This document shows, piece after piece, positions 10,832-60,677 of a stretch of DNA of 64,000 nucleotides. Positions within the stretch are counted from its first letter, which is position 1, and each line of letters begins with the position of its first letter. This stretch comes from Thuidium tamariscinum. Taxonomy: Eukaryota; Streptophyta; Bryopsida; Hypnales; Thuidiaceae. A model generated the notes under the pieces. It saw nothing but the letters and a program-made list of their open reading frames with translations. It was not told where the DNA came from and searched no databases. Made by a program: the position numbers and the translations under genes. Where the stretch lies: positions 16,197,501 through 16,261,500 of the forward strand of contig OX344749.2 of assembly GCA_947034885.2 (NCBI GenBank), in the 5' to 3' direction.

Positions 10832-12881
10832 TAGAAGCTCCCAAATGGAACATTGGTGGTTTATAAACACCTAGAAAAGAATCTAAATCCAAGTGCAAGT
10901 GAACCCAAAGAGGACACGTGGAGGTCTAAAATAGGCAAGTGAGGTTCCAAGAAGTTGTCACTCTTCCAAAAAGTGGCCAATCATTAATATAGAATTCAAA
11001 GCTAGAGTGTGTTGCTTTTGGGTGTTTTTGTGCCCACTTTGGTGTTAGTCTAGTGTTTATAGTAGATGCACCTTTACAATTATTTCAAAAATTCATATTA
11101 TATTCATAGAAGCTATGACCAAAGGTACTACATTTTGATGTGTATCAAAGAAAGAGGAGTAATAGTAAAAAAATTAGAAACAATAAATTAAAGTCATAGT
11201 TAGAAGGCTTTGGAAGTTGTTTCAAATCCATCAACAATCAAATATCAATTTAATACTAATTCATCCAATCAACAAAACATTTGTTTGATTTTAGAGCACT
11301 TTTTCAAGTTTTAAAGAACGGTTTAGAGCCAAAACAATGTTGTTGGATGTAGATGAGTGTGGCACATTCCCTTGGGAATTATAGGTGCAAAATTGTGCTT
11401 GGCAAAGCGGATAAAAGGATGGTTGGACAATTGTTTACACCTCAAATTTATAATACATTTTTTCTTTCCTTACTCAAATAGACTATTTTGCTTGCATCTC
11501 TAGTTAGAAAAGAAATAGGTGCTTGTTGTATTTGTAGTGGCCACTATCCTACCCTCAATCATTCAATGTGCCCCTATCGTCAAAGCCTTCAATATCTTCT
11601 TCATGTTGCGATCCATTTGCTATTGAGACAAATTATAGATTCATAAACTTTCTTGAAGTGTGTTTTAATAAGAGATGCCCTAAGTTTCAAGAGCAAGGAA
11701 AGGGTTCATTGCTATTGTTCTATTGTTGTTGTTATATTCAAGTTACAATTCAATTGTGGATGTTAGAGATTGATTGATAGTTCCACCAAAACATTTACAA
11801 AAATACTAACAAAAAGAATTATCTTTGCATTCACCAACCTCCTATTTGTTGCATATACTTTGCTTAAAACCAAAACAATTTTTATAGAACATTGAAAGCA
11901 ATTGAATGGATTGCTCACAAATACACAAATATGAGATGAAGCACATTGAAAATGATGAAGAATGAGAAAAAAAAAGTAAAGAATGTTGCATGGGTGAAAC
12001 TAGTATAAAAATGATGGAATTATAACAAATTTTAAGCCTCAATATGACTATTTCTTGTAGATTTATTGCAAATTTCAAATATTTTTTTCAAGTCATTTGC
12101 TATAATAAAGTGTGATGAAAATAAATATTACTCTATAATACAAAGAAGTTATAGTTCATATGAAGTGATTTTTTGTGAAATAAACTCTTGAAACTTTGGT
12201 AGTAAGTTATATACTTAATAAATCAAAGCATTGAGATTGTTCTGGTAACATGAAAGTATATTATAGTCTCCTTGAAAAAAATTTGTATGGCTCCTAGACA
12301 TGTTTGTATTTTAAAAAAGTAAAACAATCCATTATGATCATAATTACTAGACAATTTGCACTCATACCATTGTTCAATTTCTTAATTTTTTCCCCACATA
12401 AAGACAAGTGCAAAAAATTGCAAGAGCAATTGAAATGATATTTTTTTCAATAAAGTATCAATGATTTGCTATGAAGTTTTACAGTACTCTTCCCAAAAGA
12501 GTTTGTAGACTACTCCAAAACCAATGCGCAACTATATTCATAATGCTCACCTTACTCTTTTAAAGTAGTTACAATATTTTTTAAGTTGAAGACTTTTAAC
12601 CTTGGAAGGACGCAAGGGACCTCTGCAAAATTTATGATTTCTAAAATCGTGGGAATTATTGTTAATAAAATATTCAAAAAAACTCATTTGAAGTCAAAGA
12701 ACTATAGAAGATCTCTACTTTCCACTTCTAAAACCAAAGATGAATGATTGCAATTCTATTTTACATGCAAGAATTTTATTTTACAAGCAAGAATTCCTTG
12801 TCATCCATCAGACGTCTCTGGTCCGCCGCGGCATTCCAGGGTTAAAAAGTCACTTCCTACAATGATTCTCAGTGACATCAC
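10832..12881. other. AT-rich intergenic, no gene seen
   Basis: About 2 kb of AT-rich spacer with short unrelated ORFs. I see no clear repeat structure or gene. Confidence 0.45.
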
Positions 12882-29287: not shown

Positions 29288-29674
29288 TTAACCCTGAAAC
29301 GCCGGGCGGGTCACCGCGTGCTCAAAGTGCTGTCGGGACCTACTACCGCGAGGAAGAAGAGAATCTCATGCAGCAACTACAGATGAGGCTACAGTGATGA
29401 ATCGAGTGTGCAGGCCTGAGGTAGTGGCGAATGTGAGGCACAGGACCGTCGAGAATCACAGAAAAGAGCAGGGGCTCGGAATCTTTGGCATGATTACTGC
29501 CGAGGTTTGAGCTTGTCCTCATGCGGGCAGAGGTCTAAATTAGCTAAAATCATGGACTCAAGGAATGACACGGAAGATTCAGATGCTCGAAATGGAAGGA
29601 CCGTGGAATAGCAAGTGGCACATGAGTTGAAAGTCAGAATCTCCGCATGAAAATGCAAGCTGTAAGCCTTGTAA

Positions 29675-30136
29675 TTACATAGCGTCACTATACAAGAAAA
29701 AACAGAACAGTATCCTCATACTACGGCATGGGTGTCCCTCTGCAAGGAAAACGACGGAATTTAGCCATGGGTGTACAGCTGTGATGTAGAAGTCGACGTG
29801 AAACAAGTAGGAATTGTTGAGTACAACAAAGGTGATTGAATCCGCTGGGGAAATCACACCACAGTGGTTGACGCTGTGGGCAGGCAAGAGAACGAACGGG
29901 CTGGCAGCTCCACATCCTCGGGCACAACTGTAGCACTGTTGCGGGCTTCGGGCAGGCAGCTGACAGTGCCTGCAGAGAAGCGTGTGGCCCGGTGGTGACC
30001 TGACGACGCTGGCAGGTCTTGGAAGCCCAACCGCCAGCCTATTCTTCCGCGCGCTGGGACTTGGAGGTTGCAGACCTTCAGCAACTTCAGCGTTCGTCAC
30101 AGCATGACATGTGCCACAGAGAGTGATGTAGGACAA
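29675..30136 (-). other. Open frame downstream of the transposase inside the element
   Basis: A 153-codon minus-strand frame without an early ATG (its first codon is TTG). It contains Cys/His spacing such as CRHCQL and CYSCARGC. It may be chance, a transposase 3' exon, or captured sequence. The transposase already has its own Cys/His C-terminus, so an extra exon is not needed. Confidence 0.2.
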
Positions 30137-30295
30137 GGTAGGGAACGTCTTGGAAGTCCAGAGAAATAGAGCTTCCCAGAAGTGAAAGTAAAAACCTATA
30201 GAATGTGCCGAGTACTGTACATGCAGATGCTACATATGAAACTTGAGATCTATACTTTTTTTTTTGAAACATGCTGATGGTGGATACAGAGAAAG

Positions 30296-33200
30296 TCACC
30301 AGTGCGTGCTCCAGTAGCAAGCTCCCTTACAAACATGTGCATGGCATCCTGGACAAGCTTGATTTGTGCGTTGTCCACACACGATGCAATTCCCTCTTTT
30401 TGTGCCCATACTCTTCGTACCGTGGACTGCTGCAACATAGGGTGCTCGTTTGGAGAATCCATGAGTGCGTCCACTCCATTTCGCCACGAGCTCCTTCGCC
30501 AACTGCAACTGAAAAGATAAGTGCGTCATGGGCTCCTCCATGAACCGAAAACTGATGTCACTATGCACAATCCAAGCATTACAGATGGTTGTGTCTAATA
30601 AGTACGAAAACAAACGATGCCACCATTTGTGGCTCCTTGTGAGACATGAATATAAGCCTCTCAATTGATCTGCTGTGTCCACACCCCTCATATTCTCCGT
30701 GTATTGCAGATGCATGGGTCCTGTGATAACTTTTTTCTTTTTCCCATGAAATCTGCGGTACACAAACTGGCGAGTTCTAGGTGCTGATTTCGCCTCTGCA
30801 TGCGTGGATAGGAGGACCACTGCATTGCGATCCTTCCACACTGAACAACAAATGCGACCTTCCTGGTGCATACGGTAATCAATCCAGCCAAAATCTTGGT
30901 TTTTTGTGGCATCCTTCGCATACATAGATCGTGGGACATACTTCCTATTGGCTTTGAGTGTTCCCGTCGCCATAATCCCCACATCAAGTAAGTCCAGAAA
31001 CAAGGGCACGGATGTGAAGAAATTATCGGTCGTGACAATATGACCTTTGCCTCCGAGGTCACTCATGAGATGCTTGACCACATGCCTGCCTTGCAAACCC
31101 TCTCCCTTTCCACTACGCTCTGGAAAGGATTGCATCATGGTCTCCATGGCATCGCTATCGTCAGAAGAGGAGGAATTATCATGTGGATTGCCAAATTTAC
31201 CACAGTACACATTGAAATTCCATACATACTTTGAAAGAGCGTCTGCAGCTACCCATATTTTCAAACCGAAGCGCACAGGTTTTTTAGGCATGTACTGGCG
31301 AATTGGTGAGTACTTGCCTTTGTACATCACCATGCTTTCATCCACTGTCATCTGCTGGTTGGGGAACCAGAAGCTACGAAAAGCACTGCTGACCGCATCC
31401 AATAACCACCTGACCTTGTGCAACTTGTCATACAAAGGACTGTCACGGTCTTGGACTTCCTGTGGGGCAATTGCCAAATGCAGACAACGTGTGAGGCGTT
31501 CAAATCTATCTCGTTTCATGACCTGCCCTATTACTGGACAGCTGAATAGAGCCTCCGTTCTTGACCAGTAAAGGCGACGGTTGGGGAGTTTTTTTATCCC
31601 CATTCGCAGGTGAATGCTCAAGAAAGCTCCAAGCTCCGGAACAGTAAGCGGATACCAGTCCTGTCCTCCACGTGTCTGCCCTTTCTTCTTCACAACCTCT
31701 GATGCATATAAATTCGTCTCTCTGACAATCCTTCTCAACATTTTGGGCGACCAAAATTTATGGAACAAGCCAAGCACTGAGGGCAGGCGGCCATAAGGAT
31801 GGGTACAGCCTGGAGTGGGGCCAGTGAAAGGCAATGCATTATCCTTGTAATGTGGCACGCCAGGTAGCCAAGTCTCTGGTGCAAAACGAGACAACAGAGG
31901 GTCCACCTGCTTCCCTGATTTCTTGCGAGTACTTTGATCTTTGCGTTTACTCCTCTGACGTGCCTTAGATTGAAGCAATCTTTTCCGTGCATCCAGCCAG
32001 TCCTTCCCTTTATACCATGAATCACTACTGGAATCAGCGGACCCGCCCATGTCAGCTTCGTTCTGAACGTGACCGTTATGGTCTGTTCGAAAATGGCTTG
32101 CAGTACCCGCGCTCCCGCCCGAATGAGGTCCGCCTTCCTCAGCTGGAGCTCTCCTTCTTCTTCGTTGCGGTGGATTACTAGCGGCCATATCAATCTCTGC
32201 GTCCGCTAGCATTCGACCTTGCTGTCGCTTTTGATTGTTGCGAATGACGCCGGACCTTGTACTTCCGCGTCTATTACAGTTCTCAGTGGATGCAGGTGCA
32301 TGGCGTCGATGCCGTGGAGGTCGCGGTCTCCCCGCTGCAACGAATGCACCCTCGGACAATGTGTCCTCCGAGTCTAGATCATGCTCACTTGCAGGTCCAT
32401 GAGCGGTCGTTGTAGCACCGATCTGCCTTCCCGAATCGACGTCCGTATCAGCATCAGTGGACACACCGGAGGTGGACGTCGTACCTTCATCGATGTCAAA
32501 GAAATCGTCAGCAGAGGAGGGGTGGCCGTCATAGGGTTCATCAGGTACGTCGTCACTTCCTGATTCCTCATGAAGTCTAGCTGTTGAGGTCGATGCTTGA
32601 GCGCCTGTAGGGTTCATGGGTTTCCGGGTACGGGGAGGAAGAACAGCACTGGGACGGAGCACTGCCCCCGCACACATTTCCTCGATGTGGCCATCCTCGT
32701 ACCTCAAAACTAGAAATTTCTGCTGGCTAGTTGGGTGGATTCCCTCCGCAAGAACATGCGCATTTGTGTACACGTCGATGTCGACATCTCCGTCATCATG
32801 AACGAGCCCTCTCTGGACGGAGACTACTTCTAAGTGAATGATGCTATTATGCGACGGTTGAATGTCAGCATGCGATTCGTGGCTCACCTCAGTTGACATT
32901 GTTGTTGTCGCAGGCGCGGTCGGTGCTGGAGTCACACATGCCGAGGACGAGCCGAGCACCGTCGTAAGCGGCGGACAACTGCTCCGGGTTGATTCGGCCG
33001 TTTCTCCGGGTCTTTCTGATCCCTTGTCGACGTCGATCGCTCCGGCGGTCATCAGCGGATTGCGCCTGAGTCGGGGTGCTGGTGCTTCCTTCAACGGCTC
33101 GTTGATCGCTCCGGTTGACATCGACGGACTGCGCCTGAGTCGGGGTGCTGCTGCTTCCTTCAGCGGCTCGTCCATCTGCTCCGGCGGTACTGACGGGAAA

Positions 33201-33325
33201 TTGGGACTGCCGACTGGTCCTGCACGTGATTCTTTGCGCCTCGACACTCCCTTGCGTGCTGGTGCTGGCCCGCCTTGCATTCGTGCTAGTCGTTTCATGC
33301 TCCTCATCGACGCCATGCTCGTCAT
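30296..33325 (-). CDS. piggyBac-type transposase
   Basis: A 1,009-aa ORF from the ATG at 33325. A second in-frame ATG at 32899 would give 867 aa (MSTEVSHES...). Order of parts: a low-complexity, Pro/Ser/Arg-rich N-terminus with a 23-residue duplication; an acidic region; basic stretches that could be nuclear signals (RRRRRAPAEE, KARQRSKRKD); and the DDE_Tnp_1_7 domain from about residue 498 to 905. Catalytic Asp candidates are Asp662 in QMTVDESM, Asp767 in VTTDNFF and Asp883 in MRGVDTADQL, matching the DDD triad of piggyBac. The C-terminus is a Cys/His cluster beginning CIVCGQ (Cys980, 983, 991, 994, His995, 997, Cys999, 1003), like the zinc-binding cysteine-rich domain of the family that reads the terminal repeats. 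The enzyme cuts at TTAA through hairpin ends and rejoins without a footprint. No premature stop or frameshift is seen. Confidence 0.93.
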   Translation of the reverse strand: MTSMASMRSMKRLARMQGGPAPARKGVSRRKESRAGPVGSPNFPSVPPEQMDEPLKEAAAPRLRRSPSMSTGAINEPLKEAPAPRLRRNPLMTAGAIDVDKGSERPGETAESTRSSCPPLTTVLGSSSACVTPAPTAPATTTMSTEVSHESHADIQPSHNSIIHLEVVSVQRGLVHDDGDVDIDVYTNAHVLAEGIHPTSQQKFLVLRYEDGHIEEMCAGAVLRPSAVLPPRTRKPMNPTGAQASTSTARLHEESGSDDVPDEPYDGHPSSADDFFDIDEGTTSTSGVSTDADTDVDSGRQIGATTTAHGPASEHDLDSEDTLSEGAFVAAGRPRPPRHRRHAPASTENCNRRGSTRSGVIRNNQKRQQGRMLADAEIDMAASNPPQRRRRRAPAEEGGPHSGGSAGTASHFRTDHNGHVQNEADMGGSADSSSDSWYKGKDWLDARKRLLQSKARQRSKRKDQSTRKKSGKQVDPLLSRFAPETWLPGVPHYKDNALPFTGPTPGCTHPYGRLPSVLGLFHKFWSPKMLRRIVRETNLYASEVVKKKGQTRGGQDWYPLTVPELGAFLSIHLRMGIKKLPNRRLYWSRTEALFSCPVIGQVMKRDRFERLTRCLHLAIAPQEVQDRDSPLYDKLHKVRWLLDAVSSAFRSFWFPNQQMTVDESMVMYKGKYSPIRQYMPKKPVRFGLKIWVAADALSKYVWNFNVYCGKFGNPHDNSSSSDDSDAMETMMQSFPERSGKGEGLQGRHVVKHLMSDLGGKGHIVTTDNFFTSVPLFLDLLDVGIMATGTLKANRKYVPRSMYAKDATKNQDFGWIDYRMHQEGRICCSVWKDRNAVVLLSTHAEAKSAPRTRQFVYRRFHGKKKKVITGPMHLQYTENMRGVDTADQLRGLYSCLTRSHKWWHRLFSYLLDTTICNAWIVHSDISFRFMEEPMTHLSFQLQLAKELVAKWSGRTHGFSKRAPYVAAVHGTKSMGTKRGNCIVCGQRTNQACPGCHAHVCKGACYWSTHW

Positions 33326-33710
33326 CCACGCCGTGCTCCACTTTAGGAAAAGGGAAAATTCGCTCTCTCAGTGCTCTGTAGACTTCAGCAGAGAATCCGC
33401 GGGCATGACCCTCTGGTCGCTGCGAAATCCAACCCAAAATGCGTGAAGCCCACGCGCACCACAATGACCTCAAATTCTGTGGCGATCTGTCAAAATGAAA
33501 AGCAGGAGTACTATCCTGAGGTAGTTTGGGGAGACTGATGAGGTAATTCTCATCTAACATGGACATTATGTATCGCACTTGCCACATGGAAGCATTGTGC
33601 TCCGTCAGTAGATGTGATGCTATAATGCAAGCATCAGTGGTACACCAACTAGGATGTGCATGAGGTAGCGGAAGATGGTCAAATTTTTTTTTGGTGCTGA
33701 GTCTCGGCAT
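32889..33710 (-). CDS. ORF1 of the piggyBac element, overlapping transposase out of frame
   Basis: A 273-aa frame from the ATG at 33710 (MPRLSTKKKF...) ending ...DNNNVN. Its N-terminal 120 residues look globular, with Trp-rich segments such as RSLWCAWASRILGW. The rest is Ser/Thr/Gln/Arg-rich and overlaps the transposase ORF in another frame for 437 bp. Its TGA sits inside ATGTCAACTGA, where the ATG at 32899 is the second in-frame start of the transposase. It may be a separate accessory protein, or the true 5' exon joined to the transposase by splicing. I do not recognise the protein. Confidence 0.5.
   Translation of the reverse strand: MPRLSTKKKFDHLPLPHAHPSWCTTDACIIASHLLTEHNASMWQVRYIMSMLDENYLISLPKLPQDSTPAFHFDRSPQNLRSLWCAWASRILGWISQRPEGHARGFSAEVYRALRERIFPFPKVEHGVDDEHGVDEEHETTSTNARRASTSTQGSVEAQRITCRTSRQSQFPVSTAGADGRAAEGSSSTPTQAQSVDVNRSDQRAVEGSTSTPTQAQSADDRRSDRRRQGIRKTRRNGRINPEQLSAAYDGARLVLGMCDSSTDRACDNNNVN
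33041..33178. repeat. 69-bp minisatellite, two units, inside the transposase N-terminus
   Basis: Two consecutive units share 'tgcgcctgagtcggggtgct' at an offset of exactly 69 bp (33061 and 33130). Because 69 is a multiple of 3, both overlapping frames stay open. It encodes the repeated EPLKEA..APRLRR in the transposase frame and ST.PTQAQS in the ORF1 frame. Confidence 0.8.
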
Positions 33711-34383
33711 TCCTATCGCTACTCTCTTCAATTCGTGATGAATTGTTCAACAGCGGAACTCATCGATTTCAGTTCACTTCCTACTGCAACATCAATCAAA
33801 GATAACGATGACCTATTTCCAATCGGTGCAACAACAGAAGCGCTTCATGTTTGAGTTCGAAGAAGGCGGCAGCACTGTTTTGATCAGTAGACCGTAGGGA
33901 CGAGCGATAACTCCAGGCCATGCATGCGGCGGCGGCGACGCAAAAATTCCAGCCATGGGCTCGTTTGTTACTGGATCTGCCTTCCTGTCACCTCTGTGAC
34001 ACACTGAACTCTGTCAACAGGGCCCGCCACAGCGCTGACAAGAAAGTCGGGCAGCTTTGTCTGACCACGTTCTCCTCCACCTTCTCTCTCCCTGGGCAGC
34101 ACTCATAACTGTGAACAAATTCTTTTTCACCTTCCCAAACAAATATTCGGTCAGGGTGCGAACACTCTTTGCAAGCGTGTCCTCTCCCGTTTTCATTACA
34201 GCAATCAATATCTTGTTTACAAAAACGACTGCGCTACTCTACTGACAACGCGTACATCTCCCTAACTGGACCTACCATGCTCTTAGTATTAATGCGGATG
34301 AAACTTCTTCTCCAACAATCATCTACACAGTAGATTCTTCATCGAAACGCCACAAATTGGCGCTGCCGGCGTTTAGGGGTTAA

Positions 34384-39603: not shown

Positions 39604-40190
39604 GCAGACTGGTGATTAACACCTAAAAATGCTTCATCAGAGACCTTGAGGAGGTTCCATGATTGCTCCGATCCAATGGCTTGATTCCGTCTGGCTGGTT
39701 TCTGCTGCAAGGGAGTGGCTCTTAACAGTGAATCGACTTGGGAGTCAGTTTGGACAGACTACCTCGAAGGTAAGAATGAACGGCGGAGTTTGGAGGATTT
39801 TGTGAATCTAGAAATGTAAATTATTAAGCAGATTATTTCGCCGCTTGAGTCTGGACTGCGAGGTTAGAGCTATCAAGCTACATGTGTTTGGAACATAGAA
39901 GTATCTAGATAGAATGTAATGTATGATTGAGTACAGAGCTGGAAATGGGAGGACCGGAGGACCCTTTCTGGAGAGGAAGAGCAGGGTCTAATTCTTACTG
40001 ACAGTGTAACTGTAAGATACGTGCCTGAAGCGTCAAAGCAAGATTTATTTGGCCGCATGAGATGCGCACCTGCCTAAGGTTGCCTCTTTAGTGTTTTGCA
40101 ATTTCCTTGCATACACATTTGAGGCAAAGGTTATGAATTTAAAAATTTCAACAAACGCAGTATCATTAGAAAGCTATAGTGGGTGACTAA
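39604..40190. repeat. Dispersed repeat copy B with unoccupied TTAA
   Basis: Reads gcagactggtga-TTAA (39616-39619)-cacctaaaaatgc without interruption, whereas copy A is split by the 5.1-kb piggyBac at the same TTAA. The remainder closely matches 34384-34971. Its right edge runs into 'gggtgactaaaaaaaacag', a decayed terminus like that of the TAGT-flanked element. Confidence 0.88.
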
Positions 40191-41841
40191 AAAAAACAGT
40201 TGTCCAAATTTATCATGTCATCCTAAAATCATTCTCTAAGGTTTAAGGTCTATAGAACAATCATTTACAAATTGATGATATTTGGAAAAGTTAAACTCCC
40301 TCAGCTATATCTCTACAATTTTTTTGTTGAAAGACAAAGAGAATTAAGTATCTAAACTAAGCATCTAGCTAAGCATCCAATTATTTCATGTATTTTGAAC
40401 TTTTGTGGAAAAACTTAAGAATTTTTGAAGGATTGACTAGAGACCATGGAAATGATCTCTTTTGCTATAGTCCGAATGATTGAATTAACAAAATGCAAAA
40501 ACACTTATTCGAATTCAAACTACTATACAAAGACCTTCTTTATTCACAACAAAATTAGTGGATGAACGATTGCATTTCTTGTCCTATATAGAAGAATCTT
40601 TTGCCATCCATCACACAAAAAACATTTGCTTCAATCTTTGAGGGTCAAAAGCATTATGCTTAGCATTGATACATTCAAAACTTCAATATGTAGCTCTTGT
40701 TAATTAGATGGCATTTGAAAAAAACTCAACACTTTATAGCCCTCCTACTTTATTTCAAATGTACCATGGAATGATTAAAAGACAATCAAATAGCATCTTT
40801 GCATCACAACAAAAGACCAAGATACGACACTTTCTAGTAACACATATAAGAAGTCAACACGCTAAATAAAATTGCTACCAAAGTTTGTCAAATTGCACTT
40901 TGTATTGGACACATTTCTTTTCAAACTTTGTTGCAATCTCTTTCTATAAGTTCAATTTTTCATTAGATTGTGACTATTGTCTCAAACAACCTATATATAT
41001 ATATTTCAATCATTTTAGAAAATTTTGAATACAAATATGTACACAACTTTTGTTTACTCTAGTAGATTTTTGGATATTCTATGGACATGGGAGTTCTACT
41101 TGATTAAAGAGGTAGAGAGAACCATATGCTTTTAGAAATTCTCACATATTTTTTATTGACTCTTAAAGGGTTGATTTTTCATTTTGAAAGTCTATCCAAT
41201 TAATTTCTTACTTTCAATGGCATTATGCTCATATTAAATTATTAACTCCCTTTAAAACTCTAATTTTTTTTCTCGATTAAGTTTTATGAAATATTCAACT
41301 TACACAATGATGATTGGAAGGATCTATCCATTGAAAATGCATGCATAGATTTTATTTCAAGAAATTAAGTATTCTACAACTAAACCTACACTAAAGACAA
41401 CCAATAGTCCAACCTCTTGCTACCTACAAGAAGACATTGTGGAGATTTCACCTATTACCCCAAAAGATTTCAAGAAAGATTTAGACATTAAGTATTCATT
41501 ACAAGTAGTCTAAAGATAGCTTATATTGCTCCACCTATGTAGTTACTTTCAATGTTTCAAAGGCTAAGATTATATAAAAAAATATTGATATTAATAATAA
41601 AGTTCCAACTTTCTTCAATATATGATTTTGTAGTTGATTCTCTAGGGTCCACATATCTTGTTTAATTTTGAATGAAAAGCCCTTTCCAAAAATTTGTGGT
41701 ATATAGACAGGTATGATTCTATATTATGTGGATTATGTTGGAATATATGGAAGATTTTTGCAATACTAAATGACCACATTTTGAAGGTATTATTATACAA
41801 TGATCTGAATCTTGATAAGATTAGGGTTTAATATAGATTTA

Positions 41842-43107: not shown

Positions 43108-46100
43108 TTATAATTCCTCCAATTTACTTTTGATGAATGCATAGTTTGGCTCCACTTCACTTCCATAATCTTTCAACATTCGTCTCACATCACTACGAGT
43201 ACTCAAGGAGAATGTGTAGGTAGGCTCTACCTCATCAGCTCTAATAAAGTCAACCAATGCACTTGCATGATCTTTTAGCATTCGTCTCACATCACCACGA
43301 GTATTCAAGGTGAATGCATTACTTGGCTCAACCTCATTTGCCTTGTTCAAGTCAACCAATGCACCTTCATAATCTTTCAACATTTGTTTCACAGCACCAC
43401 GAGTGCTCAAGGTGAATGCATCATTTGGCTCTACCTCATCCGCTTTGTTTAAATCAAGCAATGCACCTATAAAATTACTTAGCATTCGTTTCACAGCACC
43501 ACGAGTACTCAAAGTGAATGCATCATTTGGCTCTACCTCATCTGCTTTGTTCAAGTCAATTAATGCACCTTTATAATCACTCAACATTCGTTTCACAGCA
43601 CCACGAGTGCTCAAGGTGAATGCATCATTTGGCTCCATGTCATTTGCTATGTTCAAGTCAACCAATGCACCTTTATAATCACTCAACATTCGTTTCACAG
43701 CACCACGAGTGCTCAAGGTGAATGCATCATTTGGCTCCACCTCATCCGCTTTGTTCAAGTCCATCAATGCACCTTTGTAATCACTCAACATGCGTTTCAC
43801 CACTCCACGAGTCCTCAAAGTGAATGCATAGTTTGGCTCTATTTCATCTGCTTTATTCAAATCAACTAGTGCACCTTTATAATCCTTCAACATTTTTTTT
43901 ACATCACCACGAGTCCTCAAGGTGAATGCATCATGTGGCTCCACCTCATTTGCTGTGTTCAAGTCAACCAATGCACCTTTATAATCACTCAACATTCGTT
44001 TCACAAAACCACGAGTGCTTAAGGTGAATGCATCATTTGGCTCCACCTCATCCGCTTTGTTTAAGTCAATCAATGCACCTTCATAATCACTCAACATTTG
44101 TTTCACTACTCCACGAGTCTTCAAAGTGAATGCATAGTTTGGCTCTACTTGATTTGCTTTATTCAAGTCAACCAATGCACCTTCATAATCACTCAACATT
44201 TGTTTTATATCACCACAAGTGGTCAAGGTGAATGCATCATGTGGCTCCACCTCATTCGCTTCGTTCAAGTCAACCAATGCACTTGTGTAATCCCTCAGCA
44301 TTCGTTTTACAACACCACGAGTTCTCAAAGTGAAAGCATCGTGTGTCTTCACCTCATATGCTTTATTCAAGTCAATCAATGCACCTTCATAATCCCTCAT
44401 CATTAATTTCACATCCCCACGAGTGCTCAAGGTAAATGCATCATTTGGCTCCATTTCATTCGCTTCATTTAAGTCAGCTAATGCACCACTATAATCATTT
44501 AACATTCGTTTCACAACACCACGAGTGCTCAAGGTGAATGCATCATTTGGCTCTACCTCATTGGCTTTGTTCAAATCAAACAATGCACCTTTAAAATCAC
44601 TTAGCATTCGTTTCACAGCACCACAAGTACGCAAAGTGAATGCATCATTTGGCTCCACCCCATCTGCTTTGTTCAAGTCAACCAATGCACCTTTATAATC
44701 CTTTAACATCAATTTCACAGCACCTCGAGTGCTCAAGGTGAACGCACTATGTGGCTCCACTTCATCCGCTTTGTTTAAATCAGCCAATGCACCTTTGTAA
44801 TCACTCAACATTCGTTTCACATCACCACGAGTGCTCAAGGTGAATGCATTATTTGGCTCCACCTCATCTGCTTTGTTCAAGTCAATCAATGCACTTTCAT
44901 AATCTTTTAGCATTCTTTTCACAACACCACAATTTCTCAAAGTGAATGCACTATGTGGCTCCACTTCATCCACTTTGTTCAAGTCAACTAGTGCACCTTT
45001 ATAATCACTTAAAATTCGTCTTACAACACCACGGGTGCTCAAGGTGAATGCATCATTAGGCTCCACTTCATTTGCTTTGTTCAAGTCGGCCAATGCACCT
45101 TTGTAATCACTCAACATTCGTTTCACATCACCTCGAGTGCTCAAGGTAAATGCATTATTTGGCTCCATCTCATCCGCTTTATTCAAGTCAACCAATGCAC
45201 TTTCATAATCTCTAAACATTCGTTTCACATAACCACGATTCTGCAAGGTGAATGCATTATTTGGCTTCCCGTCATCATCCCTCTTCAAGTCAACCATTGA
45301 AGCTGGATCATAAACATTGGAAACATGTCAGATTTAGAAGAATACTAGCAATAACATATTGTTATGTTCATTTTCAAAGTTGAATCCTTTCATTTAACTT
45401 ACCAATAATTCATATTAAATGACAACATCTTTAATGAACTAGATTTCAAATGTCATGTTGAATTGCATATTATTGTACTAACAATGAATTGTTTGATATG
45501 AACTGTTAAGTAGGCATGTACATTTAATGAGGTCTTAAAAAGCTCAAAACACAATGTTCAATAGAAAGACAAAGATATTGAATTAATATGGTTATTCAAT
45601 AATACTATATACCTCATGGAAATTTATAAAGTATTGAATTTCAAGACATACCTTCTGATGAATTTGAAAAATTTGATAGATAAGTCTTCAAAACAGGTGT
45701 TGCAAAGTAGGCCGTGAGACTAGAAAATGTAGGTCTTTTCAAAGGTTCAAATTGCAAACATCTACATATGAAGGAGTTGAGTAGCTCTGGACATGATGGA
45801 GGCAACTTTGGTCTAAAATCATCCAATTTTTTACTTTGAAATTGTATCAATCTCAAATTTGGATGTATGAACTCTCCGCCCATAATATATAAGCATAATA
45901 GTCCAAAACTATAGACATCCGCCATTAACAACTTGGCCTTTTCAAAATTAGTCAAACTCCTTCTTTTTGTAGATTCATTTTCAATGACATCTTCATCTGT
46001 ATCAGAGTCAGTGAAGGAATTATTGAAATACCTAGTTGAGGAACCTAGAAGTTCATCCAAAAGTTCTGGAGCTTTCCACATCAATACATCCAAATGTTGT

Positions 46101-46780
46101 CTATGTTTTGAATCCAATCTACTATATTTTTTTGTTCCAATAAGACCAAAATCATTGATCTTTACTTCAAACTTGCCATATGATCCTTGATACACCAAAA
46201 CATTATTAGGTTTTAGGTCTCCATGGACAATTGCATTATCATGCAAATACTTCATACCACTTGCAATTTGGAATATGATGCCACAAGCCTCAGATAAATT
46301 AAAAGGGATAGTACTTCCAATACCTATACTTCCTTGAAATTCAACCACAATCTCCTTTTCTTTACTTGGACTTGATAACAACCCTTTGATCTTGTCAATG
46401 CTCAAGACTCTTGAGGGCAAAGAGCTAGAGGAATCTTCCTTTCTTTGTAACTCAATCTTTTTTTGTATGATACTTTGGAGATTGTCATCCACATACTCTT
46501 GGAGAAGTGAACATACATTCTTCCCAATAGTGTATCCAAAACATTGCACGATATTTAGATGATCAAGATCAAATAGATATTTTGCTTCATTCTCAAAAAT
46601 AGATTTGCCTTCAACTGATCCAATTGGAAAGTCTTTTCTAGAGCATTTTTTTCCTTGCCATGTTGATTCATATATAAAACTAGATAGACCTCTTGCCAAT
46701 CGTCGCAAGACTGGAAAATCCTTTGGTTGTAACTTCCATGGAAGATCAGTTGCTACTTTTGGATAAGAGGTAGATGCCAT
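43108..46780 (-). CDS. Protein kinase fused to about 20 TPR-like repeats, 2 exons
   Basis: Exon 1 is 46780-45652 and exon 2 is 45302-43108 (minus strand). The 349-bp intron has GTATGT and CAG borders and joins the frame as GAA-GCT-TCA-ATG. The product is 1,107 aa. The kinase domain covers about residues 25-360: a degenerate glycine loop (ARGLSSF), Lys49 in CSRKDF, Glu65, VHGDLKPNNVL (HGD at 186-188, Asp188), DFG at 210-212 and APE at 237-239. It is therefore probably an active Ser/Thr-type kinase of the HGD class. From about residue 390, twenty 34-residue repeats of the form FTLSTRGAVKRMLSDYKG-ALVDLNKADEVEPNDA follow, fitting TPR spacing and forming a protein-binding solenoid. A last shortened unit follows. 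BSK kinases also carry C-terminal TPRs, but far fewer and more varied. If the intron is retained, translation stops three codons in, giving kinase alone. A 15-codon upstream ORF (ATG at 46800) overlaps the start. Confidence 0.88.
43135..45297 (-). repeat. 102-bp coding tandem repeat array
   Basis: About 20 head-to-tail units of 102 bp, each encoding one TPR-like 34-mer. Units are very similar in DNA sequence, recurring around 'ctcaaggtgaatgcatcatt' on the plus strand. The last complete-looking unit near the stop has lost about 12 codons in frame. Confidence 0.92.
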
Positions 46781-46792
46781 ATTGATCCACAA

Positions 46793-55087: not shown

Positions 55088-55479
55088 GCCCGGGTAGGTA
55101 TGGTTTTCAAAAATTCCATACCTATGTGCAAACTAAAATTGCTCATAACTTTTGACTTCTTAATCTAAATGGGATGAAACAAAGCTTCCTATGTCTGTAA
55201 AAACCTAAAGAATTAATTTGAATTTTCACTTTTGAAAAAAAAGTTTTCTTAAAGAAGTTTTTTTAGCTGCCCAAGCTGCCCTCCAAGTTAAGAAAACGAC
55301 ATATCATGCCATAACTTCTTAACCACAAAGTGAAAAGTTGCGAAAATTGTTGGGCCTTAAAGCTACTCCTTGAGCACATCTTGTGTAAAAGTTTCAGCGG
55401 AAAAAAATAAAAACTCCATTTGTAGTGAGCTGCCCAAAAAATTTATAATGCCAAAAAACGCACCTCAGGGCTTTAGGGG
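55088..55479. repeat. Single-arm member of the TTAA/CCCCTAAA family
   Basis: Matches one arm of the palindrome at 58204-58942, from 'gggtaggtatggttttcaaa' to 'cagggctttagggg', and is followed by TTAA at 55480-55483. The other terminus is not found, so this copy is truncated or rearranged. Confidence 0.7.
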
Positions 55480-55483
55480 TTAA

Positions 55484-58946: not shown

Positions 58947-59495
58947 GATAACCATAATTACTTATAAAAGCTATGAGGGAAAAAATTCTAGTACCTTATG
59001 TTTTTTTGTAAATTCATTCATTTTTTTATTTTAAAAATAGGATTATTTTACATAGAAAATTTAATTGTCAAATTTTTTTTTGCCTCTATCCTTCTTCACA
59101 AATTTTCTTTCTATCTACTACATATATGTAAGGGGATTAGATTATAAAACCAACAATAATCAATTCAATTCAAGTACATTGATGAAGTGATGGTTTTTAA
59201 TAACTATTTTATCATTGAATAATATAAAATCTCTATTAAAAGTATCCAATGCACATCCCAATCAATATGAGGGTGGTTGACACATGAGGTATCAAAAAAT
59301 GAGGTGTAGAAGTGTTTGTTCACTAGAAGAAAACTACATTAGAAATCACCAAAACGCATGGGCTGAAATTTGTTGAATTCCACGTTTCTAGTGCAAAAAT
59401 CTACGTTGGAATACTCACATTTGTCCCACATATATTGGAACACCTTCTCCCACTCCAAGAGGATGTAGTGAGCTCCACTCCTTATGGAAATTCAT
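58947..59495. other. AT-rich intergenic, no gene seen
   Basis: AT-rich spacer between the palindromic element and two short hairpins. Nothing else is recognised. Confidence 0.4.
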
Positions 59496-59498
59496 ACC

Positions 59499-59607
59499 TT
59501 CCTCCATCCACATGAAGTGGATGGAGGGAACACATCCTTTGAGGTCTTTCATTTTAGAGACCCCAAAAGATGTGTTCCCTCTACCCACTTCATGTGGATG
59601 GAGGAAG
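59499..59607. repeat. Short hairpin locus H1
   Basis: About 109 bp. The arms 'ttcctccatccacatgaagt' and its near-exact complement ending 'catgtggatggaggaa' enclose a loop around 'ggtctttcattttagagacc', itself a small palindrome. It is non-coding and adjacent to hairpin H2. Confidence 0.85.
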
Positions 59608-59614
59608 AAGTGAG

Positions 59615-59821
59615 TTTGCAATTGCAGAAGGTTTCTTATATCCCCATGGGGTGGTGGGAGGAGCCCCAACCCATGTGGGATATATGATTTCCAACAAGTT
59701 GGAACTAAAAATTCAAAATTTGAATTCTTAGTTCCAACTTGTTGGAAATCATATATCCCACATGGATTGGGGCTCCTTCCACCACCCCATGGGCATATAA
59801 GAAACCTTTTGCAATTGCAAA
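59615..59821. repeat. Long near-perfect hairpin locus H2
   Basis: 207 bp. Arms of about 100 nt differ at only a few positions. They run from 'tttgcaattgcagaaggttt' to the complementary '...aaccttttgcaattgcaaa', with almost no loop (centre near 59718, 'attcaaaatttgaat'). Such low divergence implies a recent origin. It could be a foldback MITE or a source of small RNAs. Confidence 0.9.
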
Positions 59822-60677
59822 TTCAAATCATTTTGAGTTCTTCTCATGGTAAGAGAAAGAGAGCTCAAACAATAGAAAAGCAAAGTTTTTGGTATTCAAA
59901 TTTAAAACAAAAGAAATTGGAAACTTTGGTAGCAGTGTTTGTCCCTTTTAGAGGGCTGCCTTCAATGTTTAGCTGTGGGGCAAGCCTCTCTCACACGGCC
60001 CGGCCAAAATTCCAACGCCCTTCAAAGGGTCTGATTTTGAGTTGTTTGGCGAGTCCAGCTGTGGGGATGCTCTCAACTGACAAGTAGGCTCGTATACACA
60101 TTTCCATAAGAGCCACTATGTGGATGCTCATAGTAAAACGCTTCCAATGAAGCCCCTAAGACCACCACTTCAGAGCAAGTCTGTGAGTACCTTAACGGTT
60201 ATGGATGCTTCTACCTTATTACCTCAAGTTCTGTCTTGCACTGCACAGTAGGATCCGCGGCGTCCTTCTGCGGTAGAGTTTTTGTAGTTGTCCGTGGCTT
60301 TTTCTGGGCTGTTCTTCTGGAGATCGGGCACTTGTCTTGCTCGACCAGTCCGACATCTGGGATTTACAAGAATCAGGTCTGTGGTGTCTGTTATCGGATG
60401 TGAAGCTCTATCGGTGCATTCAGAGGTAGACAATGGAGGGCTCTCGTTACGCGTTCGTAGGGGTCGTTGAATCTCCACAACCTTCGAGCGGTCTTGGTTG
60501 GTTAATGGGGTTGCAACTCTTCGCTTAGAGTTCCGATTTGACTCTGACTCCTGGATTCTTTAGGGAGACCGAAAGGCTCATGAAATTGGATCGGGAGTCC
60601 TCCGATCCGCTCAATCGAATCCTTCACTTTCAAGGATTGTGCTTCGAACTGTCGAGAGATTGTCCCACACAATCGAG
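59822..60677 (+). promoter_or_regulatory. 5' flank and probable leader of the 60.7-kb kinase
   Basis: Composition becomes GC-richer toward the kinase. A 32-codon upstream ORF starts at 60433 (MEGSRYAFVGVVES...). An in-frame TAG at 60561 separates this region from the kinase frame. No TATA box was confidently assigned. Confidence 0.35.

Follow-up and report, generated by a model that had tools for sequence, protein, structure and literature searches.

An intact piggyBac-type DNA transposon with near-identical dispersed copies in a plant genome

Structure of the element and its transposase

Examination of the 64,000-nucleotide stretch of DNA analysed here (the window) revealed a TTAA-flanked element carrying a transposase open reading frame on the reverse strand, together with a second site in which similar flanking sequence is uninterrupted. 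The features are as follows, with the basis of each in brackets where one applies.

29288..29291, no strand: left TTAA target-site copy (sequence)
29292..34379, minus strand: body of the piggyBac-type element, 5,088 bp (identical in 8 of the 11 full-length copies of the genome)
29292..29305, plus strand: left terminal inverted repeat CCCTGAAACGCCGG, 14 bp (end comparison)
30296..33325, minus strand: transposase ORF, 1,009 aa, frame B (ORF list)
30302..30388, minus strand: C-terminal cysteine-rich segment, residues 980-1008 (sequence and alignment)
30572..31771, minus strand: DDE_Tnp_1_7 catalytic domain, residues 519-918, with D662, D767 and D883 (Pfam, 5.7e-79)
32883..32891, minus strand: junction at which the frame changes, TGAGGTGAG (AG-GT in all 11 sequences compared)
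32889..33710, minus strand: frame A, from ATG to the TGA at 32891-32889, overlapping the 1,009-aa ORF
33327..33710, minus strand: conserved N-terminal block MPRLSTKKKF...FPKVEHGV, frame A (comparison with relatives)
34366..34379, minus strand: right terminal inverted repeat CCCCTAAACGCCGG, 14 bp (end comparison)
34380..34383, no strand: right TTAA target-site copy (sequence)
39604..40211, plus strand: paralogous empty site, made of 12 bp, a single TTAA (39616-39619) and the right-flank repeat

The initial annotation of this DNA had described TTAA on both sides and matched ends, and this was borne out: the outermost 14 bases of the two element ends are equal at 12 of 14 positions. With up to three mismatches allowed, the end pattern occurs four times in the window against 0.07 expected, and its two exact matches are both ends of the 29288-34383 element.

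A 1,009-codon ORF with three catalytic aspartates and a Cys/His C-terminus had also been reported, and all of these residues were confirmed. DDE_Tnp_1_7 is the single Pfam family found for the ORF at E 0.001 (266.4 bits, cut-off 22.4, E 5.7e-79), and only two PDB sequences match it at E 0.01 or better, those of piggyBat (3.2e-27) and piggyBac (1e-22), in agreement with the membership of the piggyBac superfamily first proposed. The motifs holding D662, D767 and D883 align with those of piggyBat 9c0f and piggyBac 6x67. The C-terminus contains Cys 980, 983, 991, 994, 999 and 1003 and His 995, 997 and 1008; the three aspartates and the six C-terminal cysteines are invariant across eight aligned sequences, namely the window transposase and seven sequences of the same genome, of which L058 and L059 look identical in the alignment. 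The match of this segment to the piggyBat tail is below threshold and zinc binding is putative. Single-sequence structure models from the window were unusable (mean pLDDT 32.8, for the C-terminal Cys segment, and 43.2).

Some other features of the window and the assembly are recorded here for completeness. A 729-aa ORF at 43108-45297 (minus strand) is built of TPR repeats 102 nt (34 aa) long and is adjoined by a protein kinase ORF at 45641-46792. Inverted repeats lie side by side at 59485-59825, one with 107-nt arms 1 nt apart and 94% complementary, the other with 63-nt arms 10 nt apart and 86% complementary. The 115-kb contig C19 carries two uninterrupted genes of the PsaA/PsaB family; the top PDB matches of its plastid PsaB are 7ksq, 6l35 and 8htu (about 1,665 bits), which are from Physcomitrium patens, and the next score 1,630 and 1,601. 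The host is therefore likely to be a moss.

Full-length copies, empty sites and age

The initial annotation had suggested looking for other TTAA-flanked copies. A search of the window's own assembly (363,211,507 bases in 19 contigs) with a 5,096-bp query, in which 40 of 119 candidates were scored, yielded eleven full-length copies including that of the window, located on contigs C1, C2, C5, C8 and C9; the next best of those scored matches part of the element at 70% identity. All eleven have TTAA on both sides, and their printed 30-bp flanks are all different. Compared base by base, eight copies are identical, two (L009 and L010) have one difference each and one (L011) has two, which amounts to four differences in 11 x 5,088 bp, or 7.1e-5 per site. 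In every copy frame B runs through 1,023 codons with zero stops.

The plant mutation rate is near 7e-9 per site per generation (Arabidopsis), and that of the host may differ. At the Arabidopsis rate the divergence between copies would correspond to an age on the scale of ten thousand generations at most, an estimate to be read with the caveat that gene conversion or assembly consensus could make the copies look younger. From the identity of the copies we infer a very recent burst of the 5.1-kb element, possibly continuing, and the presence of eight identical copies at different sites suggests that it may still be mobile today.

An empty site had been claimed at 39604-39640. Its single TTAA and its right side stand, the site reading GCAGACTGGTGA-TTAA-CACC and then about 600 bp that are 91.5% identical to the right flank of the element, while the match to the left of the TTAA extends over about 12-13 bp only. 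A better empty site, on which both sides match, lies 194 kb further on in the same contig (L062, C1:16425250-16426150); it is 84% identical over positions 1-457 of a 700-base query, the match covering 300 bp of the left flank and 157 bp of the right, and has TGAA at the position of the element's TTAA. This second site came from a genome search with the joined flanks of the window copy, for which four of four candidates were scored. For the other ten copies, one concatenated flank query was used and 40 of 3,837 candidates were scored, many of these places being taken by a repeat; site-spanning paralogues were found at three places for L002 and at one place for L011. Altogether, three of the eleven copies have paralogous empty sites, six in total, three with TTAA and three with one base changed, and all six are paralogues, not alleles. 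For the remaining eight copies no empty site was found among the 40 flank candidates scored. The flank copies are 91.5% identical and the elements show the four differences given above, and the insertion is therefore much younger than the duplication of the flank, as had been supposed.

The surroundings of two copies deserve a brief description. L002 lies in a repeat context with at least three uninterrupted relatives in about 110 kb (L065 at G000:C9:5222920, L063 at 5318880 and L064 at 5345000). The left flank of L010 (G000:C2:19453545) reads CCTTTAGGG-TTAA, and sixteen other matches to this flank, among 40 scored candidates, stop at or near the insertion TTAA; L010 seems to have inserted in a TTAA that bounded another piggyBac-like repeat.

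A conserved block in a second reading frame

The single-ORF picture of the initial annotation holds in so far as the 1,009-aa ORF exists, but it missed a conserved upstream block in another frame. This N-terminal block was found in all eleven related elements having 5' sequence, at 60-73% identity. A genome search in which 150 of 243 candidates were scored placed it at 149 loci, with about 27-30% identity in the weakest; among the eleven full-length copies it is 100% identical. Comparison with Pfam and PDB gave no convincing relative (best Presenilin, E 1.5; PDB, E 0.72). Codon-position counts show that frame A is coding between about 33710 and 33330 and once more immediately before 32922, and that frame B is coding from about 32830 on, with the change at 32891.

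At the junction between the two frames, the bases AG-GT occur in 11 of 11 sequences, followed by G at +3 in 8, A at +4 in 10 and G at +5 in 9; the AG-GT was first noticed in a 12-sequence alignment and later located by a pattern containing AGGT, so that its presence in L053 and L057 is partly by construction. The distance from the junction to a conserved E codon is exactly 61 nt in 12 of 14 sequences, the exceptions being badly placed anchors (no candidate in L020, 70 in L021) in two sequences that both have 61 in the 12-element alignment. In 11 of 12 aligned elements (all except L019) the frame-A distance is divisible by three, though it ranges from 351 to 492 nt. A UGA stands at the junction in 6 of 14 sequences, the window family included.

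To survey the relative offset of the two frames, 40 block-A matches out of 149 and 40 block-B matches out of 50 were used; the other ten members of the window family were omitted, as were, on the block-A side, matches dropped by eye for want of a partner. Among 39 block A/B pairs the offset is +1 in 30, +2 in six and 0 in three. The +1 pairs show 16 different lengths, and because some pairs nearly duplicate one another the p-value of the offset is optimistic. In 22 pairs of distant relatives picked by eye the offset is not fixed, being +1 in eleven. Over the 20 codons past the junction, frame B is open in all ten families examined (no stop among 200 codons; P 0.00095 by shuffling), as against two families for frame A and none for frame C. 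Substitutions in the 54 nt past the junction are without codon-position bias in five close pairs, and strong coding constraint on this stretch is therefore disfavoured.

How the two frames are brought together can be approached through several readings. Joining by an intron or by alternative splicing stands at somewhat less than an even chance: the junction resembles a 5' splice site, as its AG-GT in all eleven sequences suggests, and against this are the near-constant 61-nt spacing to the E codon and the openness of frame B past the junction in every family. A plain intron also misfits because the TGA of the window family precedes the donor-like site, and splicing would leave it in place. Translation of frames A and B as two separate ORFs is possible, with a rather smaller probability; no conserved frame-B ATG was spotted by eye in the 12-element alignments. 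A +1 frameshift at the conserved junction, on UGA in the window family, in a plant piggyBac group that is currently active, would account for the net offset of +1 in 30 of 39 pairs of the window's clade despite 16 linker lengths and for a frame B open for 20 codons, but the splice-site-like junction, the restriction of UGA to 6 of 14 sequences and the half of the distant relatives lacking the +1 offset make it improbable. Some other way of joining the frames would be more improbable still.

Related and non-autonomous elements

A search of the genome with profile PF13843 gave 659 candidates, of which 116 were scored; all 116 are transposase-domain matches above the cut-off, spread over contigs C1 to C10, and the eleven copies are among them. 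Many related transposase loci contain stop codons. The same profile had no matches in 14 control genomes, and relatives outside this genome were found neither in viral-contig scans (534-aa query, alignment A1) nor in a genome-contig scan (A1).

Eleven related elements encode transposases 52-68% identical to that of the window in the main match. With up to four mismatches, their right end was recognized in 11 of 11 and their left end in 8 of 8 testable cases, the expected left end of L014, L015 and L021 lying outside the fetched DNA; L013 and L019 have two left-end candidates each, and there were no matches inside genes.

The end pattern TTAACCCYKAAACGCCGG, with at most two mismatches, has 1,534 + 1,533 matches in the genome against 14 + 12 for the reversed control. 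The first 30 of these loci were cut out; all lie on contig C1, and they form a positional sample. In 18 of them an end pair 700-760 bp apart was present, representing 16 elements, since L039/L040 and L049/L050 are each one element seen from both ends. Seventeen short-element sequences are 80-97% identical to L023, and a genome search with one short element gave 3,142 candidates, of which 40 were scored. These non-autonomous elements of roughly 734 bp have only their terminal 18-45 bases in common with the 5.1-kb element. Transposases of this group probably moved them, and the family responsible need not be that of the window element: the short elements sampled differ more among themselves and have interiors unrelated to it. 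In the window itself, two weaker TTAACCC ends (12828-12845 and 55466-55483, minus strand), with three mismatches each, have weak partner ends matching 21 and 18 of 30 bases at 250 and 1,158 bp; they are possible old piggyBac-like MITEs.

Interpretation and rival explanations

The insertion between TTAA copies, its inverted ends, the catalytic domain with its DDD triad, the scattered near-identical copies and the paralogous empty sites are together best explained by a full-length autonomous DNA transposon of the piggyBac superfamily, belonging to a plant, probably a moss, at 29288-34383; from these sequence comparisons we put the probability of this reading at roughly 0.93. In piggyBac, the transposase binds the ends, excises the element through hairpin intermediates and reinserts it at TTAA, with the donor site restored seamlessly. 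By analogy, the window transposase would bind the ends of its element, which would leave through hairpin intermediates and reinsert at TTAA, with seamless repair of the donor site. Related elements large enough to be autonomous have similar ends, as do the elements of about 734 bp, the latter being probably passengers of this transposase group.

The identity of eight copies over 5,088 bp would also be expected from duplication or from a copied consensus, in which case all would go back to a single insertion through segmental duplication or copying in the assembly. The different 30-bp flanks of all eleven, each with TTAA on both sides, and the empty sites of three of them render this very unlikely. 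Even less credit can be given to an origin from a contaminating fungus, animal or protist, which we hold to be extremely improbable. The element does have a G+C content of 50.6% against 37.1% for the window, and piggyBac elements are best known from animals, but the eleven insertions sit in different flanks on five large contigs, the 116 scored transposase-domain matches are dispersed over ten, and the GC3 of the transposase (0.51) falls inside the range of 0.28-0.68 of four window ORFs taken as host genes. The plant host originally assumed holds, accordingly, for the assembly as given. A more serious objection is that the family is recent yet now dead or silenced, its burst being the work of a transposase whose expression has since ceased; the TGA that ends frame A at the junction and the stop codons of many relatives are in line with it. 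The stop-free frame B and the invariant N-terminal block of all eleven copies speak in the other direction, and we regard a dead family as less likely than not.

Comparison with known piggyBac elements

The inverted ends of piggyBac of Trichoplusia ni begin with CCC. That element (PDB 6x67/6x68), piggyBat of Myotis lucifugus (9c0f) and the window element have in common the TTAA target, the DDD domain and short inverted ends starting with CCC; a C-terminal Cys/His segment may be a further likeness. The window element differs from both in its plant host, its long N-terminal region and its conserved block in an overlapping frame, and its transposase has low similarity to the two solved ones. It is also larger, at 5.1 kb against the 2,472 bp given for IFP2 in the excerpt of PMC10803768.

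The name of the superfamily has already been applied in land plants, as here. In the excerpts concerned, PiggyBac is placed among the superfamilies present in all groups studied (PMC4438587), 1,230 PiggyBac elements (122 kb) are counted in a table for the fern Ceratopteris (PMC6890710) and PiggyBac is named among angiosperm MITE superfamilies (PMC10004981). Unlike the present case, these are counts or groupings, and the excerpts describe no intact autonomous element with identical dispersed copies. One 75-bp piggyBac annotation appears in the excerpt of PMC8319324, the wording 'piggybacking' alone in that of PMC10619864, and no mention of piggyBac in that of PMC12477314. For bryophytes, our searches of the open-licence PMC literature found no account of an autonomous piggyBac that is intact and recently amplified, though one may exist. 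The window element is a new member, in an unusual host, of a superfamily already listed for land plants.

For plant biology, an intact and lately multiplied piggyBac of a land plant would be a home-grown relative of a transposon widely used in genome engineering. If the host is a moss, it would offer a haploid-dominant organism in which to study plant control of a superfamily mostly studied in animals. As the positions of the eleven young insertions are known, activity at the present day can be tested directly, and the thousands of matching ends suggest that this superfamily has long shaped the genome.
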